From Alphaproteobacteria bacterium (GTDB taxonomy: Bacteria; Pseudomonadota; Alphaproteobacteria; Rs-D84), in NCBI GenBank assembly GCA_017629245.1, contig JAGBXO010000011.1:62001-126000 (forward strand): a stretch of 64,000 nt of DNA. The letters run 5' to 3'. Positions 26,936 to 53,454 of this stretch are shown here, piece by piece. Below the pieces are notes generated by a model. It was given only the letters and a program-made list of their open reading frames with translations. It did no database searches and was not told the origin of the DNA. Made by a program: the position numbers and the translations under genes. How positions within the stretch are numbered: the stretch's first letter is position 1; the number at the start of each line of letters is the position of its first letter.

Positions 26936-28165
26936 TCACCCCCCCAGCACCGTTTCAGTTGCCGTCATCTGTGCAATTGGTGCAATGTATTTTAATTCGG
27001 CGTCACTGTTTAACTGGATTGGCGCAATCAATCCACGACGCGCCAAAATCTGTAATCCGCGGTCACACAGCGGGCGGATAAATTCATGCAACAGGCGGCC
27101 ATATGTCGCCCCCAGAATGCGCATCATGTCGGCATTGCGCGCCATGATTTCGGTTGCGGTCATTTCTTTGTCCGACAACAGGCCCAAACGGTCTGCCAAC
27201 AGCGCATGACGAATGCGTTCGCGCAGGTCTTTTAATATCAACTGGGATACATCAAAGTCTGCACCACTGGTCAATGGGGTCAGGCCTGATGAGCCGACAG
27301 CCTTAGGGATAATTGCGCCAGGGGTCAGGTTAATGTTCTGCAGGTTTATAACGCCATCGTCGTCCGCCATCCAAATTCCAGAAACCGCAATTGTCGCGTT
27401 TTTCAGAACCAGTTCAACGACCTTGTTCGCGGTTTTAATATCAGGCAACGCGCGCAAGACCGGACCACGGCCGTATAATTCGCCACTGGATACAGACCAA
27501 CGGAAAATGATATAAGGATTTGTTTCAAATGTACCCGTTGACACAATATTATTTTCAATGTCACCCCCAACATCCAACCAGGCGGTAAATTCGGTACCAA
27601 CCAGACTTTGCACCAATTTCAATGGTGTTTCTGGGTCGCGTTTAATTGTATCGCGCAAATTTGCAGGCGGTGTCCATGTTGGATATTTTTCCAGGACTTC
27701 ACACGCAGGCATTGACGTGGTATGAAAAACGGCGTTTGGTAAAATTGCAATGTCTGACATTGGAATTGCAGTAAATGTAAATGCAGACGATGCACCGATT
27801 GGTGTCTCTGCCATAAACAGGCATGCCGTCCCCAATATGACCAGGTCCATATAACACTGATGTATTGTGGTGTAAAAATTTGAATCGTTCAGATTTGCGC
27901 GCAAAACCGTGGTGGCATAATCTGCGTTTTGTGATAATTCGCTTTCGCCGACCAGTTGCAGCCACATTGATTCAGGAGGTGTCAACAATGTATAAATAGA
28001 TGCCGCCAGGTTATCTGCTGCGTCGGCCGCGGTTGCATCGTATAATGTTGCCGCATCGTCGTCTGCAGATGGTATGGTATAACGACGTGCCGCATCCCAA
28101 CGGGCAATCCAAGGACTGCGCGTATTCAAGGCGCGTTTATATAGGCTTTGTAAATTCTTTTGCAT
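26936..28165 (-). CDS. Portal (head-to-tail connector) protein, podovirus type
   Basis: 409 aa. The start (YKRALNTRSPWIARWDAARRYTIPS), LAASIYTLLTPPESMWLQL, and FRWSVSSGELYGRGPVLRALPDIKTANK are typical of the T7 gp8-like connector family. It would form the dodecameric ring through which the terminase drives DNA. It is shorter than the ~500-550 aa usual for the family, with the shortening apparently at the C-terminus. The leader contains TTAACCAAAAGGA before the ATG and an intrinsic terminator just upstream. Confidence 0.85.
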   Translation of the reverse strand: MQKNLQSLYKRALNTRSPWIARWDAARRYTIPSADDDAATLYDATAADAADNLAASIYTLLTPPESMWLQLVGESELSQNADYATTVLRANLNDSNFYTTIHQCYMDLVILGTACLFMAETPIGASSAFTFTAIPMSDIAILPNAVFHTTSMPACEVLEKYPTWTPPANLRDTIKRDPETPLKLVQSLVGTEFTAWLDVGGDIENNIVSTGTFETNPYIIFRWSVSSGELYGRGPVLRALPDIKTANKVVELVLKNATIAVSGIWMADDDGVINLQNINLTPGAIIPKAVGSSGLTPLTSGADFDVSQLILKDLRERIRHALLADRLGLLSDKEMTATEIMARNADMMRILGATYGRLLHEFIRPLCDRGLQILARRGLIAPIQLNSDAELKYIAPIAQMTATETVLGG

Positions 28166-28743: not shown

Positions 28744-29613
28744 TTAAACAGAAAAATTTGTATTTGCAGAAAATGTTTGCATGCCCATACCCAATGCGCG
28801 CACAGGCATTGGCGTTTGGGCAATTGCACCGGCAACTGCGTCCAGACCATCGTCGTGTGTACCATACGCCCCAACCGGTGACCACCCCAGCATTTCAGAC
28901 ATCAGTGGCGTGGCGCGTGTGCGTTCGTGCGCATACAGACGCCCAGTTGATAACAGGGGTTCAACAGCGTCCAGGATTCGTTCGTTTTTTGATTTACTGT
29001 TCTGGATGCGACAAACATGTATACGCATGCCTTGACGGGTGGCGCAATCACGCATAATTTCAGGCAGCCCGCCACCAATTCCATTCGTTTCAATACAGAT
29101 TGTGTGCAAATTCCGCACACGCATAAATTCCAGAACCATATCACACTGGCGCGATAATGGGAACTGTTCACCATCAGATACAGTCAGATACAAAACATCA
29201 TGAACAAAGGCGCGCCGGTTTTTATCGTCACGATACAACAAGACACACGCACTGCAATCGCGTTTGCGTTTGCCACTGGATGGGTCCCAATACAATGTGA
29301 CACCTGTTATCAGATGTTCGCCAATTTTCGCACTGCGCGGTTCAAATTCTGTGTCGTAAAAATGCAGACCGCCGGGGTCCAGGCGCGCGCGTTCGGGTGA
29401 TACAAATTCCAGCATCATTTGCGACATAAAATGGCGTGAACCTACAATTTGACGCAAACTATCTATCTTATCTGGTGGAAATAATTCGGGCCACGCAGGT
29501 TCGCCGAACGCATTAACTATCGGAATTTTCAACAATTTATACCCCTGCAAAAAAGGCGTTGAAAAAGCATTTTTTTCATATACCATTGGCATAGAAGTAA
29601 AGGAATTTGACAT
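28744..29613 (-). CDS. Large terminase, nuclease half (split gene)
   Basis: 289 aa. It starts at the point where an intact large terminase leaves the ATPase domain: FLQGYKLLKIPIVNAFGEP then WPELFPPDKIDSLRQ, followed by the RNase H-fold nuclease with its acidic residues in order: DPSSGK (first Asp), IETNG (Glu) and HDDGLDA (last Asp). The whole ATPase part is absent and lies separately at 32928-33557. The ATG at 29613 overlaps the dnaB ATG in the palindrome CATG; GGGGG upstream on the minus strand serves as ribosome-binding site. Active-site residues look intact, so the half could work in trans. Confidence 0.8.
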   Translation of the reverse strand: MSNSFTSMPMVYEKNAFSTPFLQGYKLLKIPIVNAFGEPAWPELFPPDKIDSLRQIVGSRHFMSQMMLEFVSPERARLDPGGLHFYDTEFEPRSAKIGEHLITGVTLYWDPSSGKRKRDCSACVLLYRDDKNRRAFVHDVLYLTVSDGEQFPLSRQCDMVLEFMRVRNLHTICIETNGIGGGLPEIMRDCATRQGMRIHVCRIQNSKSKNERILDAVEPLLSTGRLYAHERTRATPLMSEMLGWSPVGAYGTHDDGLDAVAGAIAQTPMPVRALGMGMQTFSANTNFSV

Positions 29614-31177
29614 GGATTTTACCCCCAAAACATTACCCACAAATCTGGAAGCCGAACAGGCCGTGTTGGCCGCGGTGTTGATGAATAATCGTGCACTGGA
29701 ACGCGTGGGCGAATTCCTGAACTACACACATTTTTCACATCCTGCGCACCAGGAAATCTATAAACTGGCCGAGCGTCAATTTGCAGCCGGGATTCCATTT
29801 GATATTATTACTGCGAAAAACTATCTGGACCAACAAGGTGTCTTGGAATCGGTTGGTGGCGTTGACTATCTGACACAGCTATCTGGTGCAGGTGCAACGG
29901 TTGTTAATGTTGAACAATATGGGCGTATTGTTTATGAACACGCACTGCGTCGCGATCTGATTGCACTGGGCCAGGAAATTACAGACAAGGCATTCATCGA
30001 AGACCTGGACAATCCGCCATCACGACAAATTGAAATTGCCGAACAGAAACTGTTTGATATGGCGACAACGGGTTCGTCTGAACGCGAAGTGACACCAATT
30101 GCCGCTGCGTTGCAGACCGCATTGAACGAAGCAGAAATCGCATACAAGGCAGACGGTCAATTGTCTGGTTTGACAACGGGACTGGACGCGTTGGATAAAT
30201 CAATCAGTGGTTTGCACCATTCGGATTTAATTATTATTGCAGGTCGTCCTGCGATGGGTAAGACCACGTTGGCAATGAACATTGCATTTAATGCTGCAAA
30301 CGCGATTGCATACGGACGCGCAAACCAAAATTACAAGGGCGCAGTTGTATTTTTCAGTTTGGAAATGTCTGCATCCCAGTTGGCGGCGCGTGTGCTGTCT
30401 TCGCAGTCCAAGGTTCCGGCCAGCGCGATGCGCGAAGGAAATTTGACCGACGAAGATTTCTTGAAAATGTCACAGTATTCTGCCGCAATCGGCAAGGTAC
30501 CACTGTTCATTGACGATACACCCGGTATGTCGGTTCCAATGATGCGTACGCGCGCACGACGTCTGGCACGAAAACATGGTGGAATTGCGCTGATTGTTAT
30601 TGACTATCTACAGTTGATGACATCACCTGGTGGCAAACACAGCGATAACCGTGTTCAGGAAATTTCTGAAATTACAAGAGGTCTTAAAATGTTGGCCAAG
30701 GAATTGGATGTACCAGTAATTTCACTGTCACAGTTGTCACGTAGTGTGGAATCGCGTGACGATAAACGACCAATGCTGTCAGATTTACGTGAATCTGGGT
30801 CTATTGAACAGGACGCGGACATTGTTATGTTTACATATCGTGAAGAATACTATCTGCAAAATCGTGACCCGTCTGAACGCCTGTCAAATACCACAAATAA
30901 CGCAATGGTTGAATCATGGCAAAAACGGTATGAACGCGCCAAGGGCAAGGCTGATATTATCATTGGTAAAAACCGTCATGGCCGACCTGAAACAGTACGC
31001 ACCGCGTTCTTTGGCGATTACAGTTTGTTTGACAATCTGCCAGAATTTGAATCACAGGGCGACAATGAATTTGCACAGCCTGCGCCAACAATGTCGGCCA
31101 GCAGTCTGAACAATGATGCTGATTTTGCGCCGACTGCAATTAATCCAGACGACATCCCGGACGATATGCCGTTGTAA
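29612..31177 (+). CDS. dnaB: Replicative DNA helicase
   Basis: 521 aa with the full bacterial DnaB layout: N-terminal domain (NLEAEQAVLAAVLMNNRALE), linker, and RecA-like domain with Walker A GRPAMGKTT near 210, Walker B LIVIDYLQLM, and DLRESGSIEQDAD (arginine finger region). It reads as the host chromosomal helicase, not a small phage enzyme, but phage origin is not excluded. It is the first gene of the plus-strand cassette inserted in the terminase gene; AAAGGA lies before the ATG. No strong promoter is evident upstream. Confidence 0.9.
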   Translation: MDFTPKTLPTNLEAEQAVLAAVLMNNRALERVGEFLNYTHFSHPAHQEIYKLAERQFAAGIPFDIITAKNYLDQQGVLESVGGVDYLTQLSGAGATVVNVEQYGRIVYEHALRRDLIALGQEITDKAFIEDLDNPPSRQIEIAEQKLFDMATTGSSEREVTPIAAALQTALNEAEIAYKADGQLSGLTTGLDALDKSISGLHHSDLIIIAGRPAMGKTTLAMNIAFNAANAIAYGRANQNYKGAVVFFSLEMSASQLAARVLSSQSKVPASAMREGNLTDEDFLKMSQYSAAIGKVPLFIDDTPGMSVPMMRTRARRLARKHGGIALIVIDYLQLMTSPGGKHSDNRVQEISEITRGLKMLAKELDVPVISLSQLSRSVESRDDKRPMLSDLRESGSIEQDADIVMFTYREEYYLQNRDPSERLSNTTNNAMVESWQKRYERAKGKADIIIGKNRHGRPETVRTAFFGDYSLFDNLPEFESQGDNEFAQPAPTMSASSLNNDADFAPTAINPDDIPDDMPL

Positions 31178-31254: not shown

Positions 31255-32262
31255 ATGGCCCAAGAAGAAATTATTTTTCCAAATAATATACGCAACATTC
31301 GTTTGGCAAATGGTATGAAAATGACCGAACTGTCACGTCGGGCAGGATTGTCCTTGTCTGCAGTGTCCAAAATTGAAAAGGGTGTGCGTCGCCTGAACCA
31401 GAAACAATTGCTGAATATATGCAATATCTTGGGTTGCAAATTGTCGGACATTTTTATCAAGGAATCTGATGATGTTGCAAACCAATGGCAAAGCGAGATT
31501 AAGCGCCGTCTGAACGATAATGAAAACAGTGGCCTGAAGGTATTTGGCAGCGGATTGCGCAAAATCCGCCAACAGTCGGGCAAAACAATAGCCCAGGCAG
31601 CAAAAGATGCAGGTATGACACTGTCTGTTTATCACAAGATAGAGGTTGGACAGCGCGAAATCTATAAAAATGAAATCGAACCGTTGGCAAAGTCTTTTGC
31701 AATGGGCGCCGAAGATATGTTTGATAAAATTGCAAACCTGTATAAATCAGGCGAACTGAACAAACATATCAACAAAGTCAAAGAACGCGTTAAATCCGTA
31801 CTGGTACCAGGGAATCCATTGTCCGGCATCGACATGCACGGCAGTTTGTATGGTGCTAAGCTGTATGACAGTGCGCGCAAAAAACTGGTTCCTGTATTTG
31901 GAACACCGGCTGGCAAATCGATTGCATTTAAGAAATCTGATAAAACAATGATTGTTGCACCAATGACACTGGAAGGACGCGGTGGCATATATGCTGTTAT
32001 GCCAAACACAAAGCGTTTGGGTGGTTTTGTACCAGAAAATTCTTATGTTTTTGCAGATGCGATGACCCCTGCAAAGCCGGGTGATTTGGCGGTTTGCATT
32101 GATGTAGACTTTGATGCGTTGGATAATGACACATCTGTTGATGCACAAATTGTCAGCGTTCGCCAGGATTCCAAAGGTAAGATTTATGGTCATATTTCAG
32201 GCCCAGATGAAAAGGTGACAGGTCAGACAATGCACAAGGTTGTTATGATTGTTATGGAATAA
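31255..32262 (+). CDS. Double-HTH regulator with S24-like C-terminal domain
   Basis: 335 aa. Two XRE-type HTH domains: residues about 8-62 (MTELSRRAGLSLSAVSKIEKG) and about 97-150 (TIAQAAKDAGMTLSVYHKIEVG). The C-terminal ~110 residues (ENSYVFADAMTPAKPGDLAV ... SVRQDSKGKIYGHI) have the layout of LexA/CI-type S24 domains, but the Ser/Lys dyad is not evident, so it may not self-cleave. It lies between dnaB and an unknown gene inside the terminase, and is a candidate regulator of the phage-derived genes. TAGGAG precedes the ATG at 31255. Confidence 0.7.
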   Translation: MAQEEIIFPNNIRNIRLANGMKMTELSRRAGLSLSAVSKIEKGVRRLNQKQLLNICNILGCKLSDIFIKESDDVANQWQSEIKRRLNDNENSGLKVFGSGLRKIRQQSGKTIAQAAKDAGMTLSVYHKIEVGQREIYKNEIEPLAKSFAMGAEDMFDKIANLYKSGELNKHINKVKERVKSVLVPGNPLSGIDMHGSLYGAKLYDSARKKLVPVFGTPAGKSIAFKKSDKTMIVAPMTLEGRGGIYAVMPNTKRLGGFVPENSYVFADAMTPAKPGDLAVCIDVDFDALDNDTSVDAQIVSVRQDSKGKIYGHISGPDEKVTGQTMHKVVMIVME

Positions 32263-32292: not shown

Positions 32293-32931
32293 ATGAAAGC
32301 AAAAATCAAAACAACTGCACAAAGATTGTTGAACCTGTATCGCCAGGAACATGTTATTGTTGGCGGTTGGGCAACCGTTAACCCGGTATTCGTTGACGAA
32401 GCCACTGATGATGTTATCGCGGAACTGCGCGATATGCCGGCAGGAAAAACCTTGGTGCAGCATATTGAAAATCTGCGCAGTGGAAAAACACCAATGGATT
32501 CAATCGAACGCGAATTGTTGCCGTATGGCGGTATGATGAATGATGCAATTCCATCTATAACGCTGACAAACAATGAATGGCAAGAATTACAGAATGCGAT
32601 TGAACGATTTACCCCAGACCAACCAGGCTTAGATCAACTGATATCAATGCCTGTCGTGCGCAAGTTTGGCGAGGAATGGCAGATTGCAATTCGTTCTATA
32701 TTAGGTAAACATCCACATCTGTTGCCAAAGTGGGATATTATCAAACAAACATACGATGCGTACAGGCTGTGGAATACTGCGAATGAAATTATCGCAACCC
32801 CACTGTCCGAACGGTCACGCGCCCAGGTTCAAGCAGACATGCCAGAATATGAAACATACCTGCCAAAATTCGGAGTTCATGGTATTGAATTGCTGGAAAA
32901 GTTGCGTACTGTTATCAGCAGTTTGAATTAA
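32293..32931 (+). CDS. Hypothetical protein, last gene of the inserted cassette
   Basis: 212 aa, soluble, helical, with no signal peptide or membrane span. I do not recognise it. CCCGGAGAG precedes the ATG. Its TAA overlaps the TAA of the convergent terminase ATPase half inside TTAA (32928-32931). It is 30 nt downstream of the double-HTH gene on the same strand, so it is likely co-transcribed with it and may act with it. Confidence 0.55.
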   Translation: MKAKIKTTAQRLLNLYRQEHVIVGGWATVNPVFVDEATDDVIAELRDMPAGKTLVQHIENLRSGKTPMDSIERELLPYGGMMNDAIPSITLTNNEWQELQNAIERFTPDQPGLDQLISMPVVRKFGEEWQIAIRSILGKHPHLLPKWDIIKQTYDAYRLWNTANEIIATPLSERSRAQVQADMPEYETYLPKFGVHGIELLEKLRTVISSLN

Positions 32932-33557
32932 TCTTCTGCGCTGGTACGGTATATCGTATCATGTGTGTGGGGTGTGCCGATATAAATCATTGTACCAGCG
33001 GGCGATAAAATAAAGTCCAGTTCACGCAATCTTTCACGCAAACTTTCGCGTTTTTGTGCGGTGTTGGTTGTATTTGGCACCTCTATATCATCACAGATTA
33101 TTAAATCTGCGCGCATACCGGTTATGTTGCCATGTATTCCCTGGCATATAACAGATGGTTCACGAATCCCAATGGGACGATTAATCGTTATACGACCAGA
33201 TGCCCATTCTTTTTTATTTGTGGGAACCATGTCCGTACACCATGGATGATTTTCCAGGATATGGCGCACATGTGCAACCATACGCGATGCCAGACCATTT
33301 TCCGCCGACAGTACTAATATACGATATTCTGGATGCAGATATAAAACACATGCAACAAACACGCCGACGACGGTTGACTTGCCAGAATGCCGAAAAGCCA
33401 TCAGTAAACCGCGATGTGGCGCGCCATGCAATACTTCGACCAGAAATGCCATTATTTTACGATGATGTGCGGGCGTTTTATAGCCCAGAACACGATTCCA
33501 TTCGTCCAGAAAACTATAAAACGCCGAAGTCGTCAATGTTGTCGTCTGTTGTGGCAT
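32928..33557 (-). CDS. Large terminase, ATPase half (split gene)
   Basis: 209 aa. Walker A FRHSGKST near residue 57, Walker B ADLIICDDIE near 153, and coupling motif YIGTPHT near 194; then RTSAED and stop. These are the ATPase motifs of a large terminase, in order, and the polypeptide ends where the nuclease domain should begin. The missing part is the gene at 28744-29613. It overlaps the fibre gene by 44 nt at its 5' end. No strong ribosome-binding site is visible, so coupling to the fibre gene is likely. Confidence 0.8.
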   Translation of the reverse strand: MPQQTTTLTTSAFYSFLDEWNRVLGYKTPAHHRKIMAFLVEVLHGAPHRGLLMAFRHSGKSTVVGVFVACVLYLHPEYRILVLSAENGLASRMVAHVRHILENHPWCTDMVPTNKKEWASGRITINRPIGIREPSVICQGIHGNITGMRADLIICDDIEVPNTTNTAQKRESLRERLRELDFILSPAGTMIYIGTPHTHDTIYRTSAED

Positions 33558-34065
33558 CTGCTATGTACCCATAATCGTTTATCAAATTTGGCAGTGCGCA
33601 TTCCAACACAGTCAATAAATTACGATATAACCCCATAACACCGCCACCGGATAATTTATCAGATATGACAGAGTTGGTATAATCCATTAAGGACTTTATT
33701 TCGTCATGGCGATTTGCCCATTCAGATAAATCTGTATCAACAGCACGCAAATCTTGGAATGCCGCCAACAGAAAATTAAAATCCATATTCAGGTGTTCTG
33801 GGTCTATGTTCTGGGTTGGTTGATAGTCAATGGTTCGCGACAGCGATATTTGACGAAAGATATCTATTTTAGTATCCGCAATTGGCGCATCATCAAAAAC
33901 GATATTGCCACCAGAAAAGTCTTCGTTTGGCGCAACCGAATAATTATACAGCACATCATCCGCACCGTCATTTATCACAACACGAACATCCGCAATCTGA
34001 AAATATGGAAAAGCAAATGCAAATTCTGTTGTTGCACCGTCCGCAATATAAGAAATTTTATACAT
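33514..34065 (-). CDS. Tail fibre anchor, T7 gp17-like N-terminal domain
   Basis: 183 aa. MYKISYIADGATTEFAFAFPYFQIADVRVVIN and VFDDAPIADTKIDIFRQISLSRTIDYQPTQ match the N-terminal domain by which T7-like fibres attach to the tail. The long shaft and receptor-binding tip are absent; only a helical segment follows. A separate fibre-type gene at 48856 may supply the tip. GGGGGG lies before the ATG. Confidence 0.75.
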   Translation of the reverse strand: MYKISYIADGATTEFAFAFPYFQIADVRVVINDGADDVLYNYSVAPNEDFSGGNIVFDDAPIADTKIDIFRQISLSRTIDYQPTQNIDPEHLNMDFNFLLAAFQDLRAVDTDLSEWANRHDEIKSLMDYTNSVISDKLSGGGVMGLYRNLLTVLECALPNLINDYGYIADATTDDNIDDFGVL

Positions 34066-34461: not shown

Positions 34462-36177
34462 TTATACGGTGTACCAACCATGCATTGTCACAGACAATAC
34501 TGTTATTGGATGGGTTGATATGCCACTGATTGTCCATAACGGTTTTATTCCATCAGATTCCGTGCCCAACAGATTTATAGACACATCACCATTAAAGCCG
34601 GTTGAATCAGGCGTATAAATTTCGTTTGGTAATGTTATGCGATGCGAATTTATATCTATTGATTTTGTATCTATCAAACGAGTAACAATCTTGCGCAGTT
34701 TAATACGCGTTGCGTTATGCCCAGATGCACGCAATGGCAATCCTGATGCGGTAATTGAAAAATCATATTGCCCACAATCCTGGGTTGCGGTGGTGGTAAA
34801 ACGTTCCAAGAACACACCATTAATACGATGTGTCACAATATATGTTGTGTTATCAGATACCGCAACCGATAAAACATCGCCCTCTGTCGTATATGTTCCC
34901 CAGGCAGATATACCCAATGCAGAATTTTTATTTAATACTGCCATCTTCCCATCTGAACGAACGACAAATAACTGGCGCGTGGCGGGATTATATGCCATGT
35001 CAATTGGGTTTGTCAGTAAATGCTTGGACATGGGACATAAATCATTTGCATTATAATTTTCCCCCAGTTCATCCAGTCCCAGTTCACGAATATCATGCCC
35101 AGACGCAGATACAAAAACAGTTGCGTTTTCTATTTTTTGTGGTGTCAGACAGCCTAATGAATAAGAACCGACCGATGTGTGTTGTTTTATATCCACGGAC
35201 GATGGGGTCAAGGGATTGCTGGAAATTGCCCATTCCCCGACATTTGTTAATATTTGCAGGTTATCACTGCTGACGACGGCGCAAATCTGTTGGCGTTGTT
35301 GTGACAGTAATGACACGAAAATTGCTTCGTCATCCAGACCAGTGCCAATATTAAAATTATTATGCCGACCAACCTGTGACATCCATATGCCACCAGGCCA
35401 ATCACGTGTGCCACCGAAAATCAATCTGTCTTGGTGGAATGTTATGCTGCATGGCCATCCGCGACGCGTGCCAAATGCGCATTCGCGCCAATCAGACACA
35501 CTGGCGGACGGGACAGAATATGTACCGTTCGTATATGCGACGATTTGTGTCGGGCTGATATATTCATGGATATACCACTGTTTATCTAACAGGTGCAGAT
35601 GACCTCCAACATTTTCTGGGTTCCAGAAATCTGCACTGGTTGTAAATGTTGCATAATTATTACCATTTGAATTTGTTGTGACCGTTATCTTTATATCAGC
35701 GGCATCATCAAAGCGAACAAATGGCACATTTAATGTCATATCTGAATCATTGCGCGAAAATGCGAATTCAGACAATGTGAAATGGTCGCCTGATTTACGC
35801 AAAACCTGGGGTGGAAAATTTGGATGAACAAAAATCATTGTTCCAAAGCGTTGGGCGTATTGAATCTTTGCTAGGTCTGATATTCCCCAGGGCGCGATAA
35901 TACTTTGCATGCGATTACCGTTATGAAAGATTTGCATTCGCATATCTGTTAAGGTGATAATATACTGATGCGTATCAGATTCTGAAAATGATATCAGGCG
36001 CGCAGGCCCGTCCAATTTACAAACAGATTCCAAACCACCACGGCGCGACAGACCACCACCAGATAACACATCCATATTTTCCAATTTGGACAGTCCATTG
36101 ATATTATCCAGGGCGTAAAATTCAGGGGCAACTTCGCCATCTGCGAATGAGTTTTGTGTTTTTATAAATTCAGCCAT
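34462..36177 (-). CDS. Tail tubular protein B (T7 gp12-like nozzle)
   Basis: 571 aa. N-terminal TQNSFADGEVAPEFYAL, GGLSRRGGLE and later PCSITFHQDRLIFGGTRDWP, ISSNPLTPSSVDIKQHTSVG are the hallmark segments of podoviral tail nozzle proteins. Shorter than T7 gp12 (794 aa) but similar to many small podoviruses. Start at 36177 is favoured because GGGGGA lies 5 nt upstream; the ATG at 36189 would overlap that site. Confidence 0.8.
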   Translation of the reverse strand: MAEFIKTQNSFADGEVAPEFYALDNINGLSKLENMDVLSGGGLSRRGGLESVCKLDGPARLISFSESDTHQYIITLTDMRMQIFHNGNRMQSIIAPWGISDLAKIQYAQRFGTMIFVHPNFPPQVLRKSGDHFTLSEFAFSRNDSDMTLNVPFVRFDDAADIKITVTTNSNGNNYATFTTSADFWNPENVGGHLHLLDKQWYIHEYISPTQIVAYTNGTYSVPSASVSDWRECAFGTRRGWPCSITFHQDRLIFGGTRDWPGGIWMSQVGRHNNFNIGTGLDDEAIFVSLLSQQRQQICAVVSSDNLQILTNVGEWAISSNPLTPSSVDIKQHTSVGSYSLGCLTPQKIENATVFVSASGHDIRELGLDELGENYNANDLCPMSKHLLTNPIDMAYNPATRQLFVVRSDGKMAVLNKNSALGISAWGTYTTEGDVLSVAVSDNTTYIVTHRINGVFLERFTTTATQDCGQYDFSITASGLPLRASGHNATRIKLRKIVTRLIDTKSIDINSHRITLPNEIYTPDSTGFNGDVSINLLGTESDGIKPLWTISGISTHPITVLSVTMHGWYTV

Positions 36178-36192
36178 AAATTCCCCCATGCT

Positions 36193-36711
36193 CTAAAACC
36201 GCGTGTTAATCAAAGAAAAGTCTGATATAGAGTCATTTAACGTTGTTGTGCTGTCTATGAATTTCGCGGTCTGTAATTCTGTTTCATATAATGCAACCAG
36301 CATGCGAAATACCGTTTGATCGCCCAGTAATGGTATACAGAACTCCATCGCCAAACGTGTTGCCGCCAGTGATATAAAATATGGTGGATATTTATCAACC
36401 GATGTACGCACAATGGCGGTAATGCGAAGCATTTCTGTGTCGGACAGAATTCTGTCGCCCGCAATTCGCCCGGATGTTTTTATTACACGCAATACATTTG
36501 ATGGAATCAAAAAATCTGCGTCTGTATTTTTAGTTAAGTTTAATTCAGATATCGCAAAACGCCATGGATGCGATGCAATCAATGTGTCCATAACAGGGTC
36601 AAATAATGTCCGCGATAACTTGGCCGATGCACTGTCATCTGTTAATGACTGGATTGGTTTTTCCCCCAGTTTTAGCAGTGCCATAGAACATAAATCTATT
36701 TTTGTTAGCAT
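36193..36711 (-). CDS. Tail tubular protein A (T7 gp11-like adaptor)
   Basis: 172 aa, helical. LTKIDLCSMALLKLGEKPIQSL and HPWRFAISELNLT are characteristic of the gp11 adaptor ring that connects portal to nozzle. Length close to family norm (~190). It lies 15 nt before the nozzle gene. AAAGGGAA precedes the ATG. Confidence 0.8.
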   Translation of the reverse strand: MLTKIDLCSMALLKLGEKPIQSLTDDSASAKLSRTLFDPVMDTLIASHPWRFAISELNLTKNTDADFLIPSNVLRVIKTSGRIAGDRILSDTEMLRITAIVRTSVDKYPPYFISLAATRLAMEFCIPLLGDQTVFRMLVALYETELQTAKFIDSTTTLNDSISDFSLINTRF

Positions 36712-36731: not shown

Positions 36732-36766
36732 ATAATAAAACAAAGGCCGGTATTAATAACCGGCCA
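36732..36766 (-). terminator. Terminator-like hairpin between decoration and adaptor genes
   Basis: GGCCGGT/ACCGGCC 7-bp stem followed by a T-rich stretch on the minus strand. T7 has a partial terminator right after its capsid gene; this may serve the same dosage purpose. Confidence 0.65.
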
Positions 36767-37053: not shown

Positions 37054-37878
37054 TTAAGCAGACGCAACATCTGAACACTTAACACGAACAATGCCATCAC
37101 CATCAATCAAGACCGCACCCTGGGACATGCTGTTGCTGATAAAGTGCGCAGCGCGTTCGCCATGCCATGAAATATCAGTTTTAACTTCCTGGCCACAGGC
37201 ATGACCAATGCTGGACGCATGATAGATAAAGCAATCGCGATTGTCATTTGTCACAGGCAGCCCGTTGTGTAATACCCATGTGATACCCAACCATTTACGT
37301 GATTCAAACCCATTTACCAATGGCGAATCAGACACATAATCTGCAGATACAAATTCATCCATCGCCAACAGTTCATTCCACTGGTGTACACCAACAACCG
37401 CAAAGCGACGACCATCATCTGGAACATCGTTTGTATTTAATACCTCTAGCGCCGACAAAACTAAATCCTTGGTCAGGCCGGTTGTATAATCACCAACATT
37501 TGCAGTGGCTGTGTTCATTGCAGAAATAATCAATTCATCGGTTTTGCGCCCTAATGCATATGCACCAGCAGACGCAACAACACGGCGTTCATCAATATTT
37601 GTTTTCAGTTCATCCAGGCTATCAACCCAATCACCGGCGTAATAATCCATCAACAAACATTCAACAGGTTCATGGTTTAAATTCATTACAGGTACAATAC
37701 CATGACGTGACTTGGTACTGGCCGTGCCGCGACCAACCTTTTGGAATGTGGTTGAAGCACCAATAACACCAGATTTGCTGCGAACTGTGGAACGCAGTTT
37801 TGTACCCATTTGCTGATACGCCAAATGAACATCGGCTTCGAATTGTTTCACAAATACATTGTCTATGGAAACAGACAT
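37054..37878 (-). CDS. Major capsid protein (HK97-fold, podovirus type)
   Basis: 274 aa. FVKQFEADVHLAYQQMGTKLR, RHGIVPVMNLNH, DWVDSLDELKTNIDERR and VGVHQWNELLAMDEFVSADYV are typical of the phage capsid protein family found with T7-like scaffolds. It would form the icosahedral shell. TTAACCAAAGGA lies before the ATG. Two terminators stand between it and the upstream H1-like gene, so it needs readthrough or its own weak promoter. Confidence 0.8.
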   Translation of the reverse strand: MSVSIDNVFVKQFEADVHLAYQQMGTKLRSTVRSKSGVIGASTTFQKVGRGTASTKSRHGIVPVMNLNHEPVECLLMDYYAGDWVDSLDELKTNIDERRVVASAGAYALGRKTDELIISAMNTATANVGDYTTGLTKDLVLSALEVLNTNDVPDDGRRFAVVGVHQWNELLAMDEFVSADYVSDSPLVNGFESRKWLGITWVLHNGLPVTNDNRDCFIYHASSIGHACGQEVKTDISWHGERAAHFISNSMSQGAVLIDGDGIVRVKCSDVASA

Positions 37879-38012: not shown

Positions 38013-38056
38013 ATAAAAAAATATCAGTCAGACTGTGCACAAATCTGACTGATACT
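38013..38056 (-). terminator. Second terminator upstream of the capsid gene
   Basis: Perfect 11-bp stem TATCAGTCAGA/TCTGACTGATA, loop of 11 nt, with T7 on the minus strand. Confidence 0.8.
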
Positions 38057-38062
38057 GTCTTA

Positions 38063-38090
38063 AGAAAAATCCCCGCGATGCGGGGATTTA
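38063..38090 (-). terminator. First terminator after the H1-like gene
   Basis: AATCCCCGC/GCGGGGATT hairpin with a T5 run on the minus strand, immediately downstream of the H1-like stop codon. Confidence 0.8.
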
Positions 38091-38092
38091 TA

Positions 38093-38539
38093 TTATTTTT
38101 TCTTGCAAACTTTCTTTGCACACACCTTCTTTGCACATGCTTTTTTTGCAACTGGTTTCACAGCAACTTTTTTAACTGCTACTTTTTTAACCGCAACTTT
38201 TTTTTCAGCTGCCGCTTTCTTTGCAACTGGTTTTACGGCGACTTTTTTCACCGCGACTTTTTTTGCAGCAGGTTTTGCAGTTGCTTTTTTCGCAACAGGT
38301 TTCGCAACAACTTTTTTCACTGCAACTTTTTTTGCCGCAGGTTTTGCAGCTACTTTTTTTGCAGCAGGTTTCGCAGCAACTTTTTTAACAACAACTTTTT
38401 TCACTGCAACTTTTTTTGCAGCAGGTTTTGCAACTGCTTTTTTTGCAGCAGGTTTCGCAGCAACTTTTTTTGCAGCAGGCTTTGCAACTGGCTTTGCTGC
38501 TTCTACTTTCTTGGCAGATTTTCTAAAGAAAAATCCCAT
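38093..38539 (-). CDS. Histone H1-like Lys/Ala/Pro-repeat protein
   Basis: 148 aa built almost wholly of AAKPAAKKV-type repeats after a short start MGFFFRKSAKK, ending in ACAKKVCAKKVCKKK. This is the composition of bacterial H1-like, DNA-condensing proteins. No globular domain. It sits between scaffold and capsid genes on the same strand, with AAAGGAGAG before the ATG. It may be a host nucleoid protein or help compact packaged DNA; neither is shown. The three terminal Cys are unusual. Confidence 0.75.
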   Translation of the reverse strand: MGFFFRKSAKKVEAAKPVAKPAAKKVAAKPAAKKAVAKPAAKKVAVKKVVVKKVAAKPAAKKVAAKPAAKKVAVKKVVAKPVAKKATAKPAAKKVAVKKVAVKPVAKKAAAEKKVAVKKVAVKKVAVKPVAKKACAKKVCAKKVCKKK

Positions 38540-38648: not shown

Positions 38649-39305
38649 CTATGAATATAATTTTTTAAAACCGTTTTCTATTTTTCGAATATATTCTGCA
38701 TCGCCATCACGCCAATATTTTGGATCACGCATCATACGACGCAAATCGGAATCTGTTAAATTTTTTGTTTCATTTTTTTCTGTTTGAACATCAGGTTCCA
38801 TTGATTGCATCATCTTGTAGATACCTTGGATTCCCTGGGCTGTAGTACACAATTCATCAAACGCAGCACGTGGCAGGAAACGCGTTCCAAATTCATTTAT
38901 TGCATGTAATGCATCATTCATTTTTTGCGTATCACCAAAAAATTTTTTTAATTCATTTATTGCGCTAGTCTCAGTTTGCAAAGAAAATAAATCAGAAACC
39001 AACGGTGATAAAAATTCGTTCGCAATATCATATATTTTTTCAACCTGATTTTTTGTTAGACCAATTTCAAAAAATTTTTCACGCAGATTTTCTTCATCAT
39101 ATAATTCATGTACTGGATATTCAGATGCAGATAATGGCACACCTATCGCACGATTAAACTTTTCACGCGTCGCATCATCAGAATCTTTATTTGGTACACT
39201 AATCATTGTGCCAATCTTTTTTTCTAATTCAGTGTATGATTTTATTAATGCAGATGTGTTTAATGTTCCATCTGTGTTCAGAAATTTTTCTGGTATGTTA
39301 TCCAT
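38649..39305 (-). CDS. Capsid scaffold protein, podovirus type
   Basis: 218 aa, acidic and helical. IPEKFLNTDGTLNTSALIKSYTELEKKIG is the usual opening of T7-like scaffolding proteins, followed by YPVHELYDEENLREKFFEIGLTKNQVEKIYD. Such proteins shape the procapsid and leave before DNA packaging. The start overlaps the holin-like gene by 8 nt. Confidence 0.75.
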   Translation of the reverse strand: MDNIPEKFLNTDGTLNTSALIKSYTELEKKIGTMISVPNKDSDDATREKFNRAIGVPLSASEYPVHELYDEENLREKFFEIGLTKNQVEKIYDIANEFLSPLVSDLFSLQTETSAINELKKFFGDTQKMNDALHAINEFGTRFLPRAAFDELCTTAQGIQGIYKMMQSMEPDVQTEKNETKNLTDSDLRRMMRDPKYWRDGDAEYIRKIENGFKKLYS

Positions 39306-39508: not shown

Positions 39509-39919
39509 TTATAAATAAAACAACATTCCATCAATATCCGCGATATACCCGCGGGCGCGTGCCCATTCGGGCATTGAGTCAGAGTGATGAAATCGTGTTG
39601 CACCATAACAACAGTCGGGCAATCCGCCACGCAACATGCGTCTTGCTATACGCAGACACATTTGAAAACCCCGATCGGTTGGCAAAACCTGAGTACGCGA
39701 ATGTCGTGGTGATGCATCTGACAATGCATCAAATATCGTTTTATCAGATATTATGTCCGCAATAGAAATACCAGATGTATTGGACAGATTTTTTATCATG
39801 CTGGTTAAAGCCTCAACCCCGGGCAGCGATGCTGCACCTGTTTGTGCGTAAACCAAGCGCGCAATTTTGTATGCTAAACCTGCGGACATGTCCGTGTTTT
39901 GTATCAGTGCAAAATTCAT
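39509..39919 (-). CDS. SleB-like cell-wall hydrolase (Hydrolase_2 family)
   Basis: 136 aa. GLPDCCYGATRFHHSDSMPEWA followed by a short DGMLFY is the C-terminal signature of SleB/CwlJ-type peptidoglycan hydrolases (GATHFYNP ... P.WA ... H.FY); MLRGGLPD and VYAQTGAASLPGVEALTSMI occupy the expected places before it. Such enzymes occur near phage and GTA clusters of alphaproteobacteria. The catalytic Glu of SleB (in the region before the GATHF block) is not obvious here. GGGGGA lies 4 nt before the ATG at 39919. Confidence 0.65.
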   Translation of the reverse strand: MNFALIQNTDMSAGLAYKIARLVYAQTGAASLPGVEALTSMIKNLSNTSGISIADIISDKTIFDALSDASPRHSRTQVLPTDRGFQMCLRIARRMLRGGLPDCCYGATRFHHSDSMPEWARARGYIADIDGMLFYL

Positions 39920-39933
39920 TATTTCCCCCAGAC

Positions 39934-39960
39934 AAAAAATCCCCATGCATCTGCATGGGG
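39934..39960 (-). terminator. Second intrinsic terminator in the SleB-cluster leader
   Basis: CCCCATGC/GCATGGGG stem followed by T6 on the minus strand. Its T-run ends right at the SleB ribosome-binding site. Confidence 0.8.
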
Positions 39961-39961
39961 G

Positions 39962-39990
39962 TAAAAAAAATTCCACATCTGAATGTGGAT
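39962..39990 (-). terminator. First intrinsic terminator in the SleB-cluster leader
   Basis: TCCACAT/ATGTGGA stem, tetraloop, followed by T8 on the minus strand, about 20 nt after the predicted transcription start. Confidence 0.75.
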
Positions 39991-40015
39991 ATAATCTGTG
40001 CTGTTTATGTTTTGT

Positions 40016-40044
40016 ATACTAGCATATTTTCACAAAAAAGTCAA
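40016..40044 (-). promoter_or_regulatory. Strong promoter for the phage cluster
   Basis: On the minus strand TTGACT (40044-40039), 17 nt, TAGTAT (40021-40016). It points into the phage cluster and directly into two terminators, after the birA stop. Confidence 0.7.
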
Positions 40045-41246: not shown

Positions 41247-41492
41247 TTATTCGCGTGTCGCGTTTGGCACGTCAATGAATTTTGTAAAATCCTGAATCTT
41301 GGCACCGGTCGATGCCAAAATCTTGGAAATACTGTTTGTTGATGGCCAACGAGGTTGGCCTTCTTTTGACCAACGTTTACTTTTATTAAATGTGGTTGGA
41401 TCCAGACCACTGCACTTTGCCAGACCAGAACAGGACATACCATGTTCAGTCGCAAAACGTTCTATGGCGCGCCAAACCTCTTCATGTGTCAT
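41247..41492 (-). CDS. Small HTH regulator (paralogue A)
   Basis: 81 aa. EEVWRAIERFATEHGMSCSGLAKCSGLDPTTFNKSKRW is a helix-turn-helix with the form of XRE-like regulators; then SKILASTGAKIQDFTKFID. The core SGLDxTTFNKSKR and the following phrase (RWPS/RYPS) are shared with the gene at 43615, so they are paralogues. AGAGGGAG lies before the ATG. Target unknown. Confidence 0.65.
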   Translation of the reverse strand: MTHEEVWRAIERFATEHGMSCSGLAKCSGLDPTTFNKSKRWSKEGQPRWPSTNSISKILASTGAKIQDFTKFIDVPNATRE

Positions 41493-43614: not shown

Positions 43615-43878
43615 ATGATTAGCCAGCACGATGTATGGGATGCAATAGACGAATTGGCAGCACGACAAAAAACATCTCCTTCGCGAATGGCAATAAATAG
43701 TGGATTAGACGCAACAACATTTAATAAAAGCAAACGAAATGATGAATACGGCAAATCTAGATACCCATCATTTAGAACTGTTATCAAGGTTCTGGATTCT
43801 TTGAATATGAGCATGGCGGAATTTGGAACAATTTGTGATAAATATCACAAAAAATCGCAGGAAAAGAAAAAACAGTGA
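43615..43878 (+). CDS. Small HTH regulator (paralogue B)
   Basis: 87 aa. HDVWDAIDELAARQKTSPSRMAINSGLDATTFNKSKR, then SRYPSFRTVIKVLDSLNMSMAEFG and a Lys-rich tail. Same fold and shared SGLDxTTFNKSKR core as the gene at 41247. AAAGGGG precedes the ATG. The 335 nt upstream are AT-rich with nothing else visible. Confidence 0.65.
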   Translation: MISQHDVWDAIDELAARQKTSPSRMAINSGLDATTFNKSKRNDEYGKSRYPSFRTVIKVLDSLNMSMAEFGTICDKYHKKSQEKKKQ

Positions 43879-46327: not shown

Positions 46328-48730
46328 ATGGCCATTAAGATGGATGATTTTTTATTGCAGTACTTTATGCAGTTGCGTTTTAACAACATGCCTGCAGAGG
46401 TTATGGCACAATTTAAAGACTATGCAAAAAGGGATGATTTTAGTGGCAACATGAAGCACTGGAAATCACACCTGATGGAAAATGGCCAGCCAAAGCCGAT
46501 GCCGGACCCAACACAAAATGGGGGACCTTATTTTCTGGAAGATGAAGAATGGAAAAAACTGTTCCGTGAATTCCAAAACGCATTTCGCAAGATGGATTCA
46601 AATCGCAATAAATTTACCAGCAGCATTGACTTTGGCATAAACAATGATAAATTTAATGAATTTTTGAATGAATACTTTGGCCAAGGCCGCCTGTTTGACA
46701 AGGCCACAGCCTCTGCAGATGCAGAAATAGAAATCGCAAACCTGAAACAACTGTTGGAAAGCAATTCTAATTTGTTTAGTGTAAAATTAAGTGAATGGGG
46801 GATTATTTCGCATAAGGACCTGTTAGAAGGGATTAACAAGAAGAAGTATAATACAGACACGGAATTTCAAGATAAACTGAAGAATGTTGCACGCTATGTA
46901 TCGTATTATGCCAGTGACCTGGGGTTGCAGTTTAACGATGACCAATCAGCAAAAATTATAGAAGGATTTGATGACCCGCAAATAGATCCGCAAAAATTAA
47001 ACAACTTTAAATTAGAATATGATATTTTGTTGCGCAGATTGGCCGGCGACGATAAATTACGTGCACAATTTCCATCTGATAAAATCAAATCGTCATTTGA
47101 TACAGCCAAACAATATGTCGCATACGATGACCCAAATAGCAAGGATTATGTCCCCCCAAAACGCGAGGATGAGTTAACACCGTGGCAAAGCCTGAAAAAG
47201 CATGCAGGTGATACATATGCCGATGTTTTTGAAAAATATATTAAATTTACAGGTGATAGACTTTACTTCTCGGACCAGGCAAAGCAAATTGTTGCAGGGA
47301 TTCATAAGGCAAAGATTAAACCAACAGACGGAATTGATGCTGTTTTAAGCAAGGCAGGAGACATAAAAAAAGCACTAAAATACAAATCGCCACAAGCATC
47401 AGAACATTTTGATTGGTTTGCCAAGACAATGGGCGAATTAAAAGACACCATGCCAAAAGCATTTGAAGGCGCACTAAAGAACGGCCGACAAATGCGTGTA
47501 ATTATTGAAGAAATGATTATGAAGGCAGTCCGCGAAGGCAAAGACAAGGAAGCCAAGTCAGCAATGGAAGTCTTGTCTGTCATCAAATACGGTTATACAA
47601 CCAGTAAAATTATGGACGCCTTGGGCAAAGAGGAATTGAGCATATTTTCAGACAAAGGTTTGTCTTGGAACAAGAACGAGGGCGTACAATTCGTCACAAA
47701 AGCATTGGACAAGAGTATCAAATGGGCATTTATGGGTATTGGATACGGCATTACAATAGCGGGCAATGCATACAAATTATCTGGTAGCAAATTTAAAGGT
47801 AATCGCGACCGTATGAAGGGCGCACAACAAAATTGGGCAAATGAAAATGCGCAAAAAAAACAAAACGCACAACAACTGACCACAAACCTGAACAACCAAG
47901 ACCGACAATCAATCCAGGTAGAGCAACAAAATCGCGCGAGTGTAAACCAGGGGCAGCAAGGCGCAAATATAATAACAGATGCTAATTTACAGCAGCACAA
48001 AAATGCTTTGACCCAGGCAAAAAACGCAGATACTGCGGAAAGAACACGTCTGGACACATTTGCTGAAACGCAACAATACAAGGATGCAAAAACTGCTGTT
48101 GACAGCCACGCGGAACTTTCAAGCAATGTTCAACAATTAAATCAAGAAATCCAACAAATAAATGCTGATTTAACCAGAATACGAAATGATTTAGCGGCAC
48201 TGCAGACAAATACGACTATGTCTGATCCAGAAAAGAATGCGCGCGCAACAATCCTGGTTCAGCAAGAACAGCAAAAAAATGCGGACCTGACTGACAAGCA
48301 ACAAGCATTAAATGATGCCAATACACAACTGAACAACATACAAAACAATCCCCAATGGCAACAGCAGCAACAAATTGTACAGACACATGAACAGCAGGAA
48401 CAAGCATACACACAACAAGTAGCACAAACCAATGTATTAGACACCAGAATAACCCAGTGGGAAAACGCAACAAACAGCATTGCTGAACTTAACCATCGCA
48501 TAGACGAGCGAAATGAAGAAATGCGCAAATGGGACAACAACCACAAAGACAAATATATGGAACTGATGGCGTATTGGGATATGTTGGAATCTGGTCGCGA
48601 TTCTCATGCAGGAAAAATGTATAACTGGGGCGGACGCGGCCTTAGCGCGAAAAAAGCCCAACAAAAATTCAACACACAAAGACAAGGATATATTGATAAC
48701 TATCTGAATGGGTATTCTTATACCGCTTGA
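46328..48730 (+). CDS. Large coiled-coil, Gln-rich protein of unknown function
   Basis: 800 aa. Residues 1-480 are a helical soluble region with repeated Lys/Asp-rich segments and one hydrophobic stretch (IKWAFMGIGYGITIAGNAYKL, about 468-488). Residues 500-760 are Gln/Asn-rich coiled coil. No signal peptide. The C-terminus (WGGRGLSAKKAQQKFNTQRQG) is basic. I do not recognise a family. A TATAAT box and AGGAGA lie upstream. It ends where the promoter of the next phage-type gene begins, so a phage ejection protein is possible but not shown. Confidence 0.5.
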   Translation: MAIKMDDFLLQYFMQLRFNNMPAEVMAQFKDYAKRDDFSGNMKHWKSHLMENGQPKPMPDPTQNGGPYFLEDEEWKKLFREFQNAFRKMDSNRNKFTSSIDFGINNDKFNEFLNEYFGQGRLFDKATASADAEIEIANLKQLLESNSNLFSVKLSEWGIISHKDLLEGINKKKYNTDTEFQDKLKNVARYVSYYASDLGLQFNDDQSAKIIEGFDDPQIDPQKLNNFKLEYDILLRRLAGDDKLRAQFPSDKIKSSFDTAKQYVAYDDPNSKDYVPPKREDELTPWQSLKKHAGDTYADVFEKYIKFTGDRLYFSDQAKQIVAGIHKAKIKPTDGIDAVLSKAGDIKKALKYKSPQASEHFDWFAKTMGELKDTMPKAFEGALKNGRQMRVIIEEMIMKAVREGKDKEAKSAMEVLSVIKYGYTTSKIMDALGKEELSIFSDKGLSWNKNEGVQFVTKALDKSIKWAFMGIGYGITIAGNAYKLSGSKFKGNRDRMKGAQQNWANENAQKKQNAQQLTTNLNNQDRQSIQVEQQNRASVNQGQQGANIITDANLQQHKNALTQAKNADTAERTRLDTFAETQQYKDAKTAVDSHAELSSNVQQLNQEIQQINADLTRIRNDLAALQTNTTMSDPEKNARATILVQQEQQKNADLTDKQQALNDANTQLNNIQNNPQWQQQQQIVQTHEQQEQAYTQQVAQTNVLDTRITQWENATNSIAELNHRIDERNEEMRKWDNNHKDKYMELMAYWDMLESGRDSHAGKMYNWGGRGLSAKKAQQKFNTQRQGYIDNYLNGYSYTA

Positions 48731-48755
48731 TTTTTTTGTGATTTTGTGCTATAAT
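48727..48755 (+). promoter_or_regulatory. Promoter upstream of the fibre gene
   Basis: TTGATT at 48727-48732, 17-nt spacer, TATAAT at 48750-48755, overlapping the stop codon of the 800-aa gene. Confidence 0.6.
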
Positions 48756-48762
48756 TCGAATG

Positions 48763-48795
48763 AACACCATCCCGCCGATGGTGTTTGTTTTTTTG
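48763..48795 (+). terminator. First terminator in the fibre-gene leader
   Basis: 9-bp stem AACACCATC/GATGGTGTT, loop CCGCC, followed by a T-rich run. It begins just at the predicted transcription start; it may also end the 800-aa gene. Confidence 0.8.
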
Positions 48796-48801
48796 TGCCC
48801 T

Positions 48802-48832
48802 GCCCCGGATTGGTGGTGGGGATTTTTTATTT
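48802..48832 (+). terminator. Second terminator-like hairpin in the fibre-gene leader
   Basis: CCCC/GGGG stem with a long loop, then ATTTTTTATTT, 25 nt before the fibre ATG. Confidence 0.45.
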
Positions 48833-48855: not shown

Positions 48856-49422
48856 ATGACACGTGTATTACAACTGCGGCGTGGTACGACCGCAAATAAT
48901 GATGCTTTTACCGGGATGCCTGGCGAAATCACAATGGATATGGATGCCAAAACACTGCGTATTCATGACGGTGAAACACTGGGCGGATTTGAAATTGCGC
49001 GCCGCGACGACATTAAGAAAAGTGATTTTAACATTGAAAATATATCTGATGAAGTATGGGCAGAAATTATCACACGATGTGCGCCAGCACCAATCAAAAT
49101 GACCGAAACAAAACCAGTACCAATTAACAGCCAATGCAGCGCATTAAACTATGTTGTTGGGATTGACGCAATGCCGTTTGCGGTTCAAACAATATTACTG
49201 TGTAAAAATGCCCAGGCAGGATATATCCCAGGTGACGAAGTAATGGCATTTGGCATTGGCGACAGATGCAACCCGGCCCCGAATATCGTTATGGAACAAG
49301 GAGGATTGAACCTGTATCTGATGGTTGGAAATGAAGCATACTGGGTCAGCCACAAAACAACAGGCACAACAACCCAAATAACAGATGAAAATTGGTATAT
49401 TTTATTCCGAGTTTACTGTTGA
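48856..49422 (+). CDS. Phage fibre-type protein with Mtd-N-like domain
   Basis: 188 aa. VLQLRRGTTANNDAFTGMPGEITMDMDAKTLRIHDGETLGGFEIAR is the small beta domain common at the N-terminus of phage tropism determinants and tail fibres (Mtd-N type). The C-terminal ~110 residues are beta-rich and unrecognised. It lies 9 kb from the main structural cluster. AAAGGA precedes the ATG. Confidence 0.75.
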   Translation: MTRVLQLRRGTTANNDAFTGMPGEITMDMDAKTLRIHDGETLGGFEIARRDDIKKSDFNIENISDEVWAEIITRCAPAPIKMTETKPVPINSQCSALNYVVGIDAMPFAVQTILLCKNAQAGYIPGDEVMAFGIGDRCNPAPNIVMEQGGLNLYLMVGNEAYWVSHKTTGTTTQITDENWYILFRVYC

Positions 49423-52486: not shown

Positions 52487-53344
52487 TCAATATCTATTTG
52501 TACGATTTGTCCAACCATCACCATATTTTCCCCAATCCGGCAGTCTCTGCAAATATTCTAATCTGTTTTCTTTTAAGTCATCCATAAATTTATCGACTTT
52601 ATTTTCTGGAATATTATTTAGCGCCCCAATTGTATTATTTCCAATATTTCCGTCCACTTTCAAACTTTCACCCATTGAATCATTTAATGTTTCTTGAACC
52701 ATTTTTCCTACGTTTCTAAAATTACTCATAAGTCCCATATCAAATATCGCCATTGCAATTCTTTCGTTTTTAATTTCTCCTATACGGCGTTCATCATAAT
52801 AATCCTCCATATATATCTGTTGCACTTGTTCAGGGCTTAAATCTTTTACTGTTTCTGGGAAATTAAAATTTGGGTGGTCAGCATTATATTTATCCAATGT
52901 GGGTTGTGTTACACCTATGTTTGTTGGTTGGTCTATTAAATCAGGATCATCAACATATCCGCCCTCGTTTTTCATTCCCTGGCGGACTATTCTAGTTCGT
53001 CTTTCATCACTATATAGCTCATCACTATCATCTAATTCTATTTCTTCTATCCAACAACGACAGTTTTTATGATGTGGATTTTTTGGGACTTCTTCCAAAT
53101 TTTCATATACTTTGTTAGAAAAGCTGCGACATATATCACATGTTTTGTCATCAATTACTGTATGCCACCGCCATGCGGTTCTGACTGTAATATTACGCCC
53201 CGTTGCATCTGTACGACTGTTACCATATTTATTTTCAAAGTAATCTTGTACCTGTTTGGCGACCGCTGCATGATTGGGGTTGTTGCTGTTTAAATATGCG
53301 TCGCTGCGCATAAGGTTTAGTATATTGTTTGATAATTTGTTCAT
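52487..53344 (-). CDS. Fusion of MuF-like domain and GH108 muramidase
   Basis: 285 aa. Residues ~55-110 (RTAWRWHTVIDDKTCDICRSFSN, then HHKNCRCWIEEIEL) have the Cys/His pattern of phage Mu F-like minor head proteins. Residues ~125-285 are a GH108 endolysin: NEGGYVDDPDLIDQPTNIGVTQ, with the catalytic Glu of the EGGYV motif present, LDKYNADHPNFNFP, IAMAIFDMGL. Holin-independent secretion activator enzymes belong here. TTACCAAAAGGA precedes the ATG at 53344, a motif shared with portal and capsid genes. The longer frame to 53527 runs through terminators and tRNA-His and is not used. Confidence 0.75.
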   Translation of the reverse strand: MNKLSNNILNLMRSDAYLNSNNPNHAAVAKQVQDYFENKYGNSRTDATGRNITVRTAWRWHTVIDDKTCDICRSFSNKVYENLEEVPKNPHHKNCRCWIEEIELDDSDELYSDERRTRIVRQGMKNEGGYVDDPDLIDQPTNIGVTQPTLDKYNADHPNFNFPETVKDLSPEQVQQIYMEDYYDERRIGEIKNERIAMAIFDMGLMSNFRNVGKMVQETLNDSMGESLKVDGNIGNNTIGALNNIPENKVDKFMDDLKENRLEYLQRLPDWGKYGDGWTNRTNRY

Positions 53345-53425: not shown

Positions 53426-53454
53426 ATTATACCAGAAAATGCAAATTTTTTCAA
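53426..53454 (-). promoter_or_regulatory. Strong promoter of the MuF-GH108 gene
   Basis: On the minus strand TTGAAA (53454-53449), 17 nt, TATAAT (53431-53426). No gene lies between it and the two following terminators. Confidence 0.75.

Follow-up and report, generated by a model that had tools for sequence, protein, structure and literature searches.

A conserved promoter–terminator–terminator leader heads a T7-like virion cluster in Rs-D84 Alphaproteobacteria and probably marks an antitermination regulon

The late switch of phage lambda consists of a constitutive late promoter, PR', followed by a terminator, tR', and is opened by the promoter-loaded antiterminator Q (discussed in PMC7969949). 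The leader described here shares this layout of a promoter followed by a terminator. Whereas lambda has one late phage promoter, here there are several dispersed chromosomal promoters, with tandem terminators ~20 nt from the start site. The Q, AlpA and GafZ elements all sit between −35 and −10 (PMC7969949, PMC11150451). In the AlpA regulon of Pseudomonas aeruginosa (alpBCDE and PA0807–PA0829) a promoter is likewise followed by intrinsic terminators just before the first open reading frame, one at alpB and two at PA0807 (PMC7969949). As here, that regulon comprises more than one locus, has its element between −10 and −35 and controls lysis genes (PMC7969949). It differs in its spacer sequence, GGGACGN5GGTA as against TTGAYTTTT..TTTRTG here, and in its extent, since the present leaders serve a virion cluster and dispersed loci across a genus, with traces across an order.

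Two gene transfer agents (GTAs) are also close. The GafYZ-controlled CcGTA of Caulobacter is, like the element described here, an alphaproteobacterial domesticated phage cluster with terminators that need read-through, a loading element between −35 and −10 (predicted in our case) and dispersed accessory genes (PMC11150451). GafZ, however, acts at one promoter only, and the terminator there comes after the first gene; here every locus has its terminators ahead of the first gene, and the cluster is podovirus-like and not RcGTA-like. FpGTA of Faecalibacterium (PMC12946183) shares a podovirus-type, GTA-like character and a gut bacterial host with our element but belongs to another phylum, and the Rs-D84 element is vertically conserved across its genus and largely across its order. 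Within the literature searched there is no prophage or GTA report for this bacterial group.

The leader and its conservation

The window, the whole stretch of 64,000 nucleotides that was analysed, comes from a genome assigned to Ca. Enterousia or its immediate neighbourhood (order Rs-D84, Alphaproteobacteria), a group with genomes near or below 1 Mb. We inspected the letters of its minus strand directly from 40044 to 39919, where an extended −10 promoter is followed by hairpin 1, hairpin 2, an SD sequence and the ATG (at 39919) of a SleB-like gene. The promoter (TTGACT-17-TAGTAT with the TG of an extended −10; 40016–40044, minus strand) lies after the birA stop at 40080 and is aimed into both hairpins, as the first-pass annotation had described; its −10 is weaker here than in most relatives. 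Hairpin 1 (39972–39989; TCCACAT/ATGTGGA, −7.3 kcal/mol), about 20 nt past the inferred start site, carries a T8 tail to 39964. Hairpin 2 (39941–39960; CCCCATGC/GCATGGGG, −14.5 kcal/mol) carries a T6 tail to 39934; the tandem terminators lie 21 nt before the gene. Both hairpins and their tails had been recognized in that first reading, which counted the U tails within the hairpin coordinates. The leader folds much more stably than shuffled sequences (z −4.5).

All promoters and terminators in this work are predicted, with conservation as their support. Across 71 distinct relatives' loci, the cluster-head leader has two terminators in 64 and one in six, with a promoter within reach in 67. Hairpin 1 covaries: six of its eight pairs have compensatory changes on both sides, compensatory cells number 36 against 11 in shuffles, and the covariation score of 0.311 (0.160 in shuffles) was reached by none of 500 shuffles. 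Cluster-head leaders also conserve a short segment ahead of hairpin 1. At two loci (L110 and L111) birA has moved ~1.6–1.9 kb off and the leader has stayed with the SleB gene, which contradicts the suggestion that hairpin 1 merely ends birA. Fibre-gene leaders are conserved within the genus in the same way, and promoter–terminator leaders resembling these are present in further families of the order (L182, L190, L116 and L369). Some leaders have a single terminator, and several members of the order have none at the orthologous gene.

A T7-like virion cluster with internal terminators

The genes behind the leader, all on the minus strand, encode T7-like virion parts: scaffold, major capsid protein, gp11- and gp12-like tail proteins, fibre, portal and a split terminase. 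The first gene product is the SleB-like cell-wall hydrolase (39509–39919; PF07486 at E 3e-5, just below the cut-off; phrog_938 endolysin). It is followed by a scaffold or T7 capsid assembly protein (38649–39305; PF05396 above the cut-off), the major capsid protein (37054–37878; PF19821, E 5e-71), which is 79–94% identical within the genus, and T7-like tail tube proteins (34462–36711), one gp11-like (36193–36711; phrog_394) and one gp12- or nozzle-like (34462–36189; phrog_376). Beyond these lie a T7-type tail fibre N-terminal protein (33514–34065; phrog_1640, with a sub-threshold match to PF03906), the ATPase half (32928–33557; positions 272–459 of phrog_38) and the nuclease half (28744–29640; positions 483–703 of phrog_38, and PF22530) of the terminase large subunit, and the portal or head–tail connector (26936–28165; PF12236, E 3e-82). 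No phage replication or integration genes were found among the cluster proteins scanned. The terminase halves are separated by dnaB, an HTH gene and an opposite-strand gene of no assigned family, a split that is conserved in the genus. Adjoining the capsid gene, inside the cluster, is a Lys/Ala-rich, histone-like repeat protein (38093–38539, minus strand).

The cluster is conserved in place across the genus and is under strong purifying selection. Its capsid gene occurs in 33 of 35 genus genomes and in 50 of 59 relatives, and in most of the order, with the absence calls for G021 and G024 affected by the incompleteness of metagenome-assembled genomes. Cluster gene order is retained in nearly all genus loci examined, at the same chromosomal place by synteny. 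The capsid protein has diverged more slowly than DnaB (mean amino-acid distance 0.146 against 0.201), its pN/pS is ~0.15 and its distances track those of dnaB (rho 0.73). Its nearest relative in a named isolate phage, a Pelagibacter phage, is 44% identical, and a 5-kb faecal record is 63% identical. A vertically inherited virion cluster in a fixed chromosomal place is one mark of a GTA; the spread of genes over several loci, here with cluster, fibres and endolysins separate, is another. As judged from its genes, the cluster is thus a domesticated, GTA-like element of T7-like podovirus type. IMG/VR lists it as 'viral' contigs of ~4–21 kb (L370–L425), many of them cut exactly at the start of the capsid gene, although the cluster itself appears to be a fixed part of the chromosome.

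Terminators also occur inside the cluster. Two lie upstream of the major capsid gene on the minus strand, terminator A at 38069–38087 (−13.3 kcal/mol) and terminator B at 38020–38056 (−17.8 kcal/mol; arms TCAGTCAGA/TCTGACTGA), and together they fold far more stably than shuffles (z −7.7). The capsid gene has a terminator within 330 nt upstream in 92 of 97 loci, in tandem in 59, and here it stands behind four terminators in series. A promoter scoring at least 10 follows the last pre-capsid terminator at two of the 97 loci only. With no recognisable promoter after these terminators, the capsid gene, the one most needed for the particle, seems within reach only of a terminator-resistant polymerase; a promoter of low strength or atypical sequence directly before the gene, past its terminators, is possible. 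A further terminator (36745–36765, minus strand) precedes the gp11-like tail gene, a place at which one is found in 69 of 98 loci, as against 0–4 loci before the other genes tested. Unlike the leader hairpins, terminator B keeps its arm sequence in many relatives, and it may double as a site for a protein or for processing.

Dispersed loci and their shared promoter spacer

We reassembled the whole 934,506-bp genome from stretches and called its genes, with simple gene calling and promoter scoring. Six gene starts have at least two terminators within 130 nt upstream, and at three of these only is a promoter aimed into both hairpins. These are the cluster head and the loci at 48.7 and 53.4 kb, exactly those that the first-pass annotation had named as sharing one leader layout, and all three precede phage-derived genes. 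The second locus, on the plus strand, has an extended −10 promoter that is conserved in relatives (TTGATT-17-TATAAT; 48727–48755), two tandem terminators (48758–48790 and 48798–48821, by scan and fold) and an Mtd_N phage tail/tropism protein (48856–49422; PF18454 above the cut-off). At the third, on the minus strand, an extended −10 promoter (TTGAAA-17-TATAAT; 53426–53454) and two tandem terminators (53411–53395 and 53385–53372, again by scan and fold) precede an endolysin with a Mu-F-like region, glycosyl hydrolase 108 and a PG-binding domain (52487–53344; PF05838 and PF09374 above the cut-off, PF04233 sub-threshold). A fourth locus (C4:8271, plus strand) has a full-consensus promoter and one terminator before a second Mtd_N phage tail gene. 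No close DNA copy of the head leader exists elsewhere in the genome, so these promoter–terminator–terminator (P-T-T) loci are not recent duplicates. Terminator-like matches are enriched in the region (42 vs 17), but promoter-like matches alone are at the level of chance (58 vs 54 expected), such that the promoter call rests on conservation in relatives.

Residues 6–40 of the endolysin at the third locus match the C terminus of phrog_3742, to which the scaffold protein of the cluster belongs, and Mu-F/lysozyme proteins of relatives start similarly to its N terminus. From this likeness, the N-terminal segment could serve to direct lytic cargo to the capsid.

We searched the 35 genus genomes with a gene-blind pattern (TTGA, 16 nt, TGNTANNNT, then T6, then T6), taking the reversed pattern as control. 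The search returned, by hand count from the site list, ~80 distinct sites in 33 of the 35 genomes, against one for the reversed pattern, with one to four P-T-T sites per genome. Of the genus sites examined, all that had hairpins and a readable open reading frame stood before one of SleB/cluster head, Mtd_N, T7-type fibres, phage lysozymes, GH108/Mu-F endolysins, EcoRI-type or C5 DNA methyltransferases and DuOB, some of these names coming from reading of the translation and not from a family search, and sites without retrieved sequence being assigned by their position beside known matches. None of these sites had a housekeeping gene behind its leader; the layout is therefore not equally common before housekeeping genes, either in the genome of the window or in the 35 genus genomes. 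Matches at G014:C38 and G019:C2 look like chance, as do most matches outside the genus.

The proposal of one regulon of phage-derived loci holds for the shared layout, but the set is not purely phage-derived, including as it does methyltransferases and DuOB. A regulon of phage genes only was rejected, because one genome (G003) has two P-T-T loci before non-phage genes, DuOB and an EcoRI-type methylase. In relatives, DNA methyltransferases of two types carry a P-T-T leader (L350, L353, L359, L366 and G003:C2:349577), and these possibly mark DNA during particle production. The DuOB protein does so at L333, L351, L360, L367 and G003:C2:12120, in G003 with a DUF488-like open reading frame next. 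The P-T-T signature picks out the late regulon of a domesticated phage with no annotation beforehand, and these last members had been unsuspected.

A comparison of leaders for a shared antitermination element, as the first reading had advised, located a shared sequence element in the promoter spacer and not in the RNA leader. From locus to locus the RNA leaders show little resemblance, and their hairpin sequences differ freely. Between −35 and −10, however, the loci share the consensus TTGAYTTTT-N7-TTTRTGATATAAT (also written TTGAYTTTT..TTTRTG), which takes the form TTGATTTTTtt-N5-tTTTrTGaTATAAT at accessory P-T-T promoters and TTGACTTTt..ttTrTGaTAttAT at cluster heads. Among accessory P-T-T promoters 80% have TTGATTTT; TTGAYTTTT occurs at two of 50 tRNA promoters and three of 41 generic promoters, and TTT one base before the −10 TG at none of the 50 tRNA promoters. 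Because TTGA and TG were built into the search pattern, independent evidence comes only from the other spacer positions. As at Q and AlpA targets, then, a promoter is followed by one or more terminators before the first gene, with a shared predicted element between −35 and −10.

A probable antitermination switch and its alternatives

We consider the leader likely to be the control region of a processive antitermination regulon of the Q/AlpA/GafZ type, belonging to a domesticated, GTA-like T7-like podovirus. The idea of a shared antitermination regulon is supported by anatomy, conservation and specificity; antitermination itself we still infer, namely that the hairpins terminate in vivo and that a factor, loaded at the promoter, overrides them. 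Housekeeping RNA polymerase would start at a near-consensus extended −10 promoter and stop within ~40–75 nt at one or two intrinsic terminators, so that the default state of the genes would be off. Under certain conditions a dedicated factor, which probably loads through the element between −35 and −10, would make the polymerase terminator-resistant. Such a polymerase would pass the leader terminators and the internal ones ahead of the capsid and tail genes, and read-through would co-activate the cluster, fibres, endolysins and methyltransferases.

The hairpins might instead be plain insulators against read-through into costly or lethal phage genes, with weak, spurious or leaky promoters. The genes upstream (birA, tRNA-His) do run in the same direction, two of the promoters lie directly behind an upstream terminator, and terminators are common in the region. 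We nevertheless find this unlikely, as an insulator has no need of a near-consensus promoter aimed into it, and such a promoter is kept between the upstream gene and the hairpins in 67 of 71 loci, even with birA displaced; the pre-capsid terminators with no recognisable promoter after them also speak against it. We hold equally improbable an attenuation that dispenses with a dedicated factor, whereby strong promoters and leaky tandem terminators give low, noisy expression, with particles in rare cells. Two serial terminators would yield a low, steady leak, and few cells express GTA-like systems (PMC11150451). Yet producing cells need capsid protein at high output and its gene lies here behind four serial terminators, and a mere leak leaves the shared spacer consensus unexplained.

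Conditional folding of the leader, in which termination would depend on a riboswitch, a T-box, ribosome-mediated attenuation or an RNA-binding protein, is the least probable account, and we regard it as very unlikely indeed. The hairpins are covarying RNA elements in a 5' leader and the stretch before hairpin 1 at the cluster head is conserved, which would suit such a device. However, hairpin 1 begins at about +1 to +20, with no space at the fibre loci for a sensor or a nut-like site, hairpin sequences vary freely between loci, and the predicted structures contain no competing antiterminator fold. Rfam searches gave no riboswitch or leader match, and tRNAs only.

For the preferred antitermination reading, we searched for the factor. 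GafA/GafZ-type DUF6456 proteins (PF20057; for the link to GafA see PMC9638019) had no significant match in any Rs-D84 genome, with one sub-threshold hit (E 0.08, in G033), whereas the Caulobacter control was positive; this, too, sets the element apart from CcGTA. A NusG paralogue of the RfaH/LoaP type was not seen in the 32 genomes, each of which has one PF02357 match and never two. T7-type single-subunit RNA polymerase (PF00940) had no match in the genome of the window (G000), in a search for which control genomes also gave none.

Two adjoining plus-strand genes between the terminase halves, present order-wide, are weak candidates. One encodes a dual HTH (XRE-type) protein (31255–32262; PF01381), a possible regulator, and the other an all-helical protein of 212 residues (32293–32931), a possible antiterminator. 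The latter has no relative in Pfam, NCBIfam, PHROG or the PDB, and its AlphaFold model (pLDDT 84, pTM 0.55) gave no fold match with E below 0.7; with no informative relative in fold or sequence, it stays a weak candidate. The pair recalls gafY–gafZ in gene order only. Its linkage to the element is weak, since outside the genus it is not near the capsid gene and in one genome (G024) it is present with no capsid gene detected.

To the broadest reading we give an even chance: an order-wide, podovirus-derived GTA of Rs-D84, switched on by a new family of promoter-loaded antiterminators, with dispersed terminator-gated loci and with lytic cargo, possibly capsid-targeted, plus DNA methyltransferases. 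Our findings suggest that antitermination control of a GTA-like element has been kept by a whole lineage in genomes stripped of most other functions, and they open the way to a direct reporter-based search for a new antiterminator. Separately, two related small HTH proteins are encoded near the cluster, at 41247–41492 and 43615–43878, of which the former is unusually conserved (85–95% identical across the genus).
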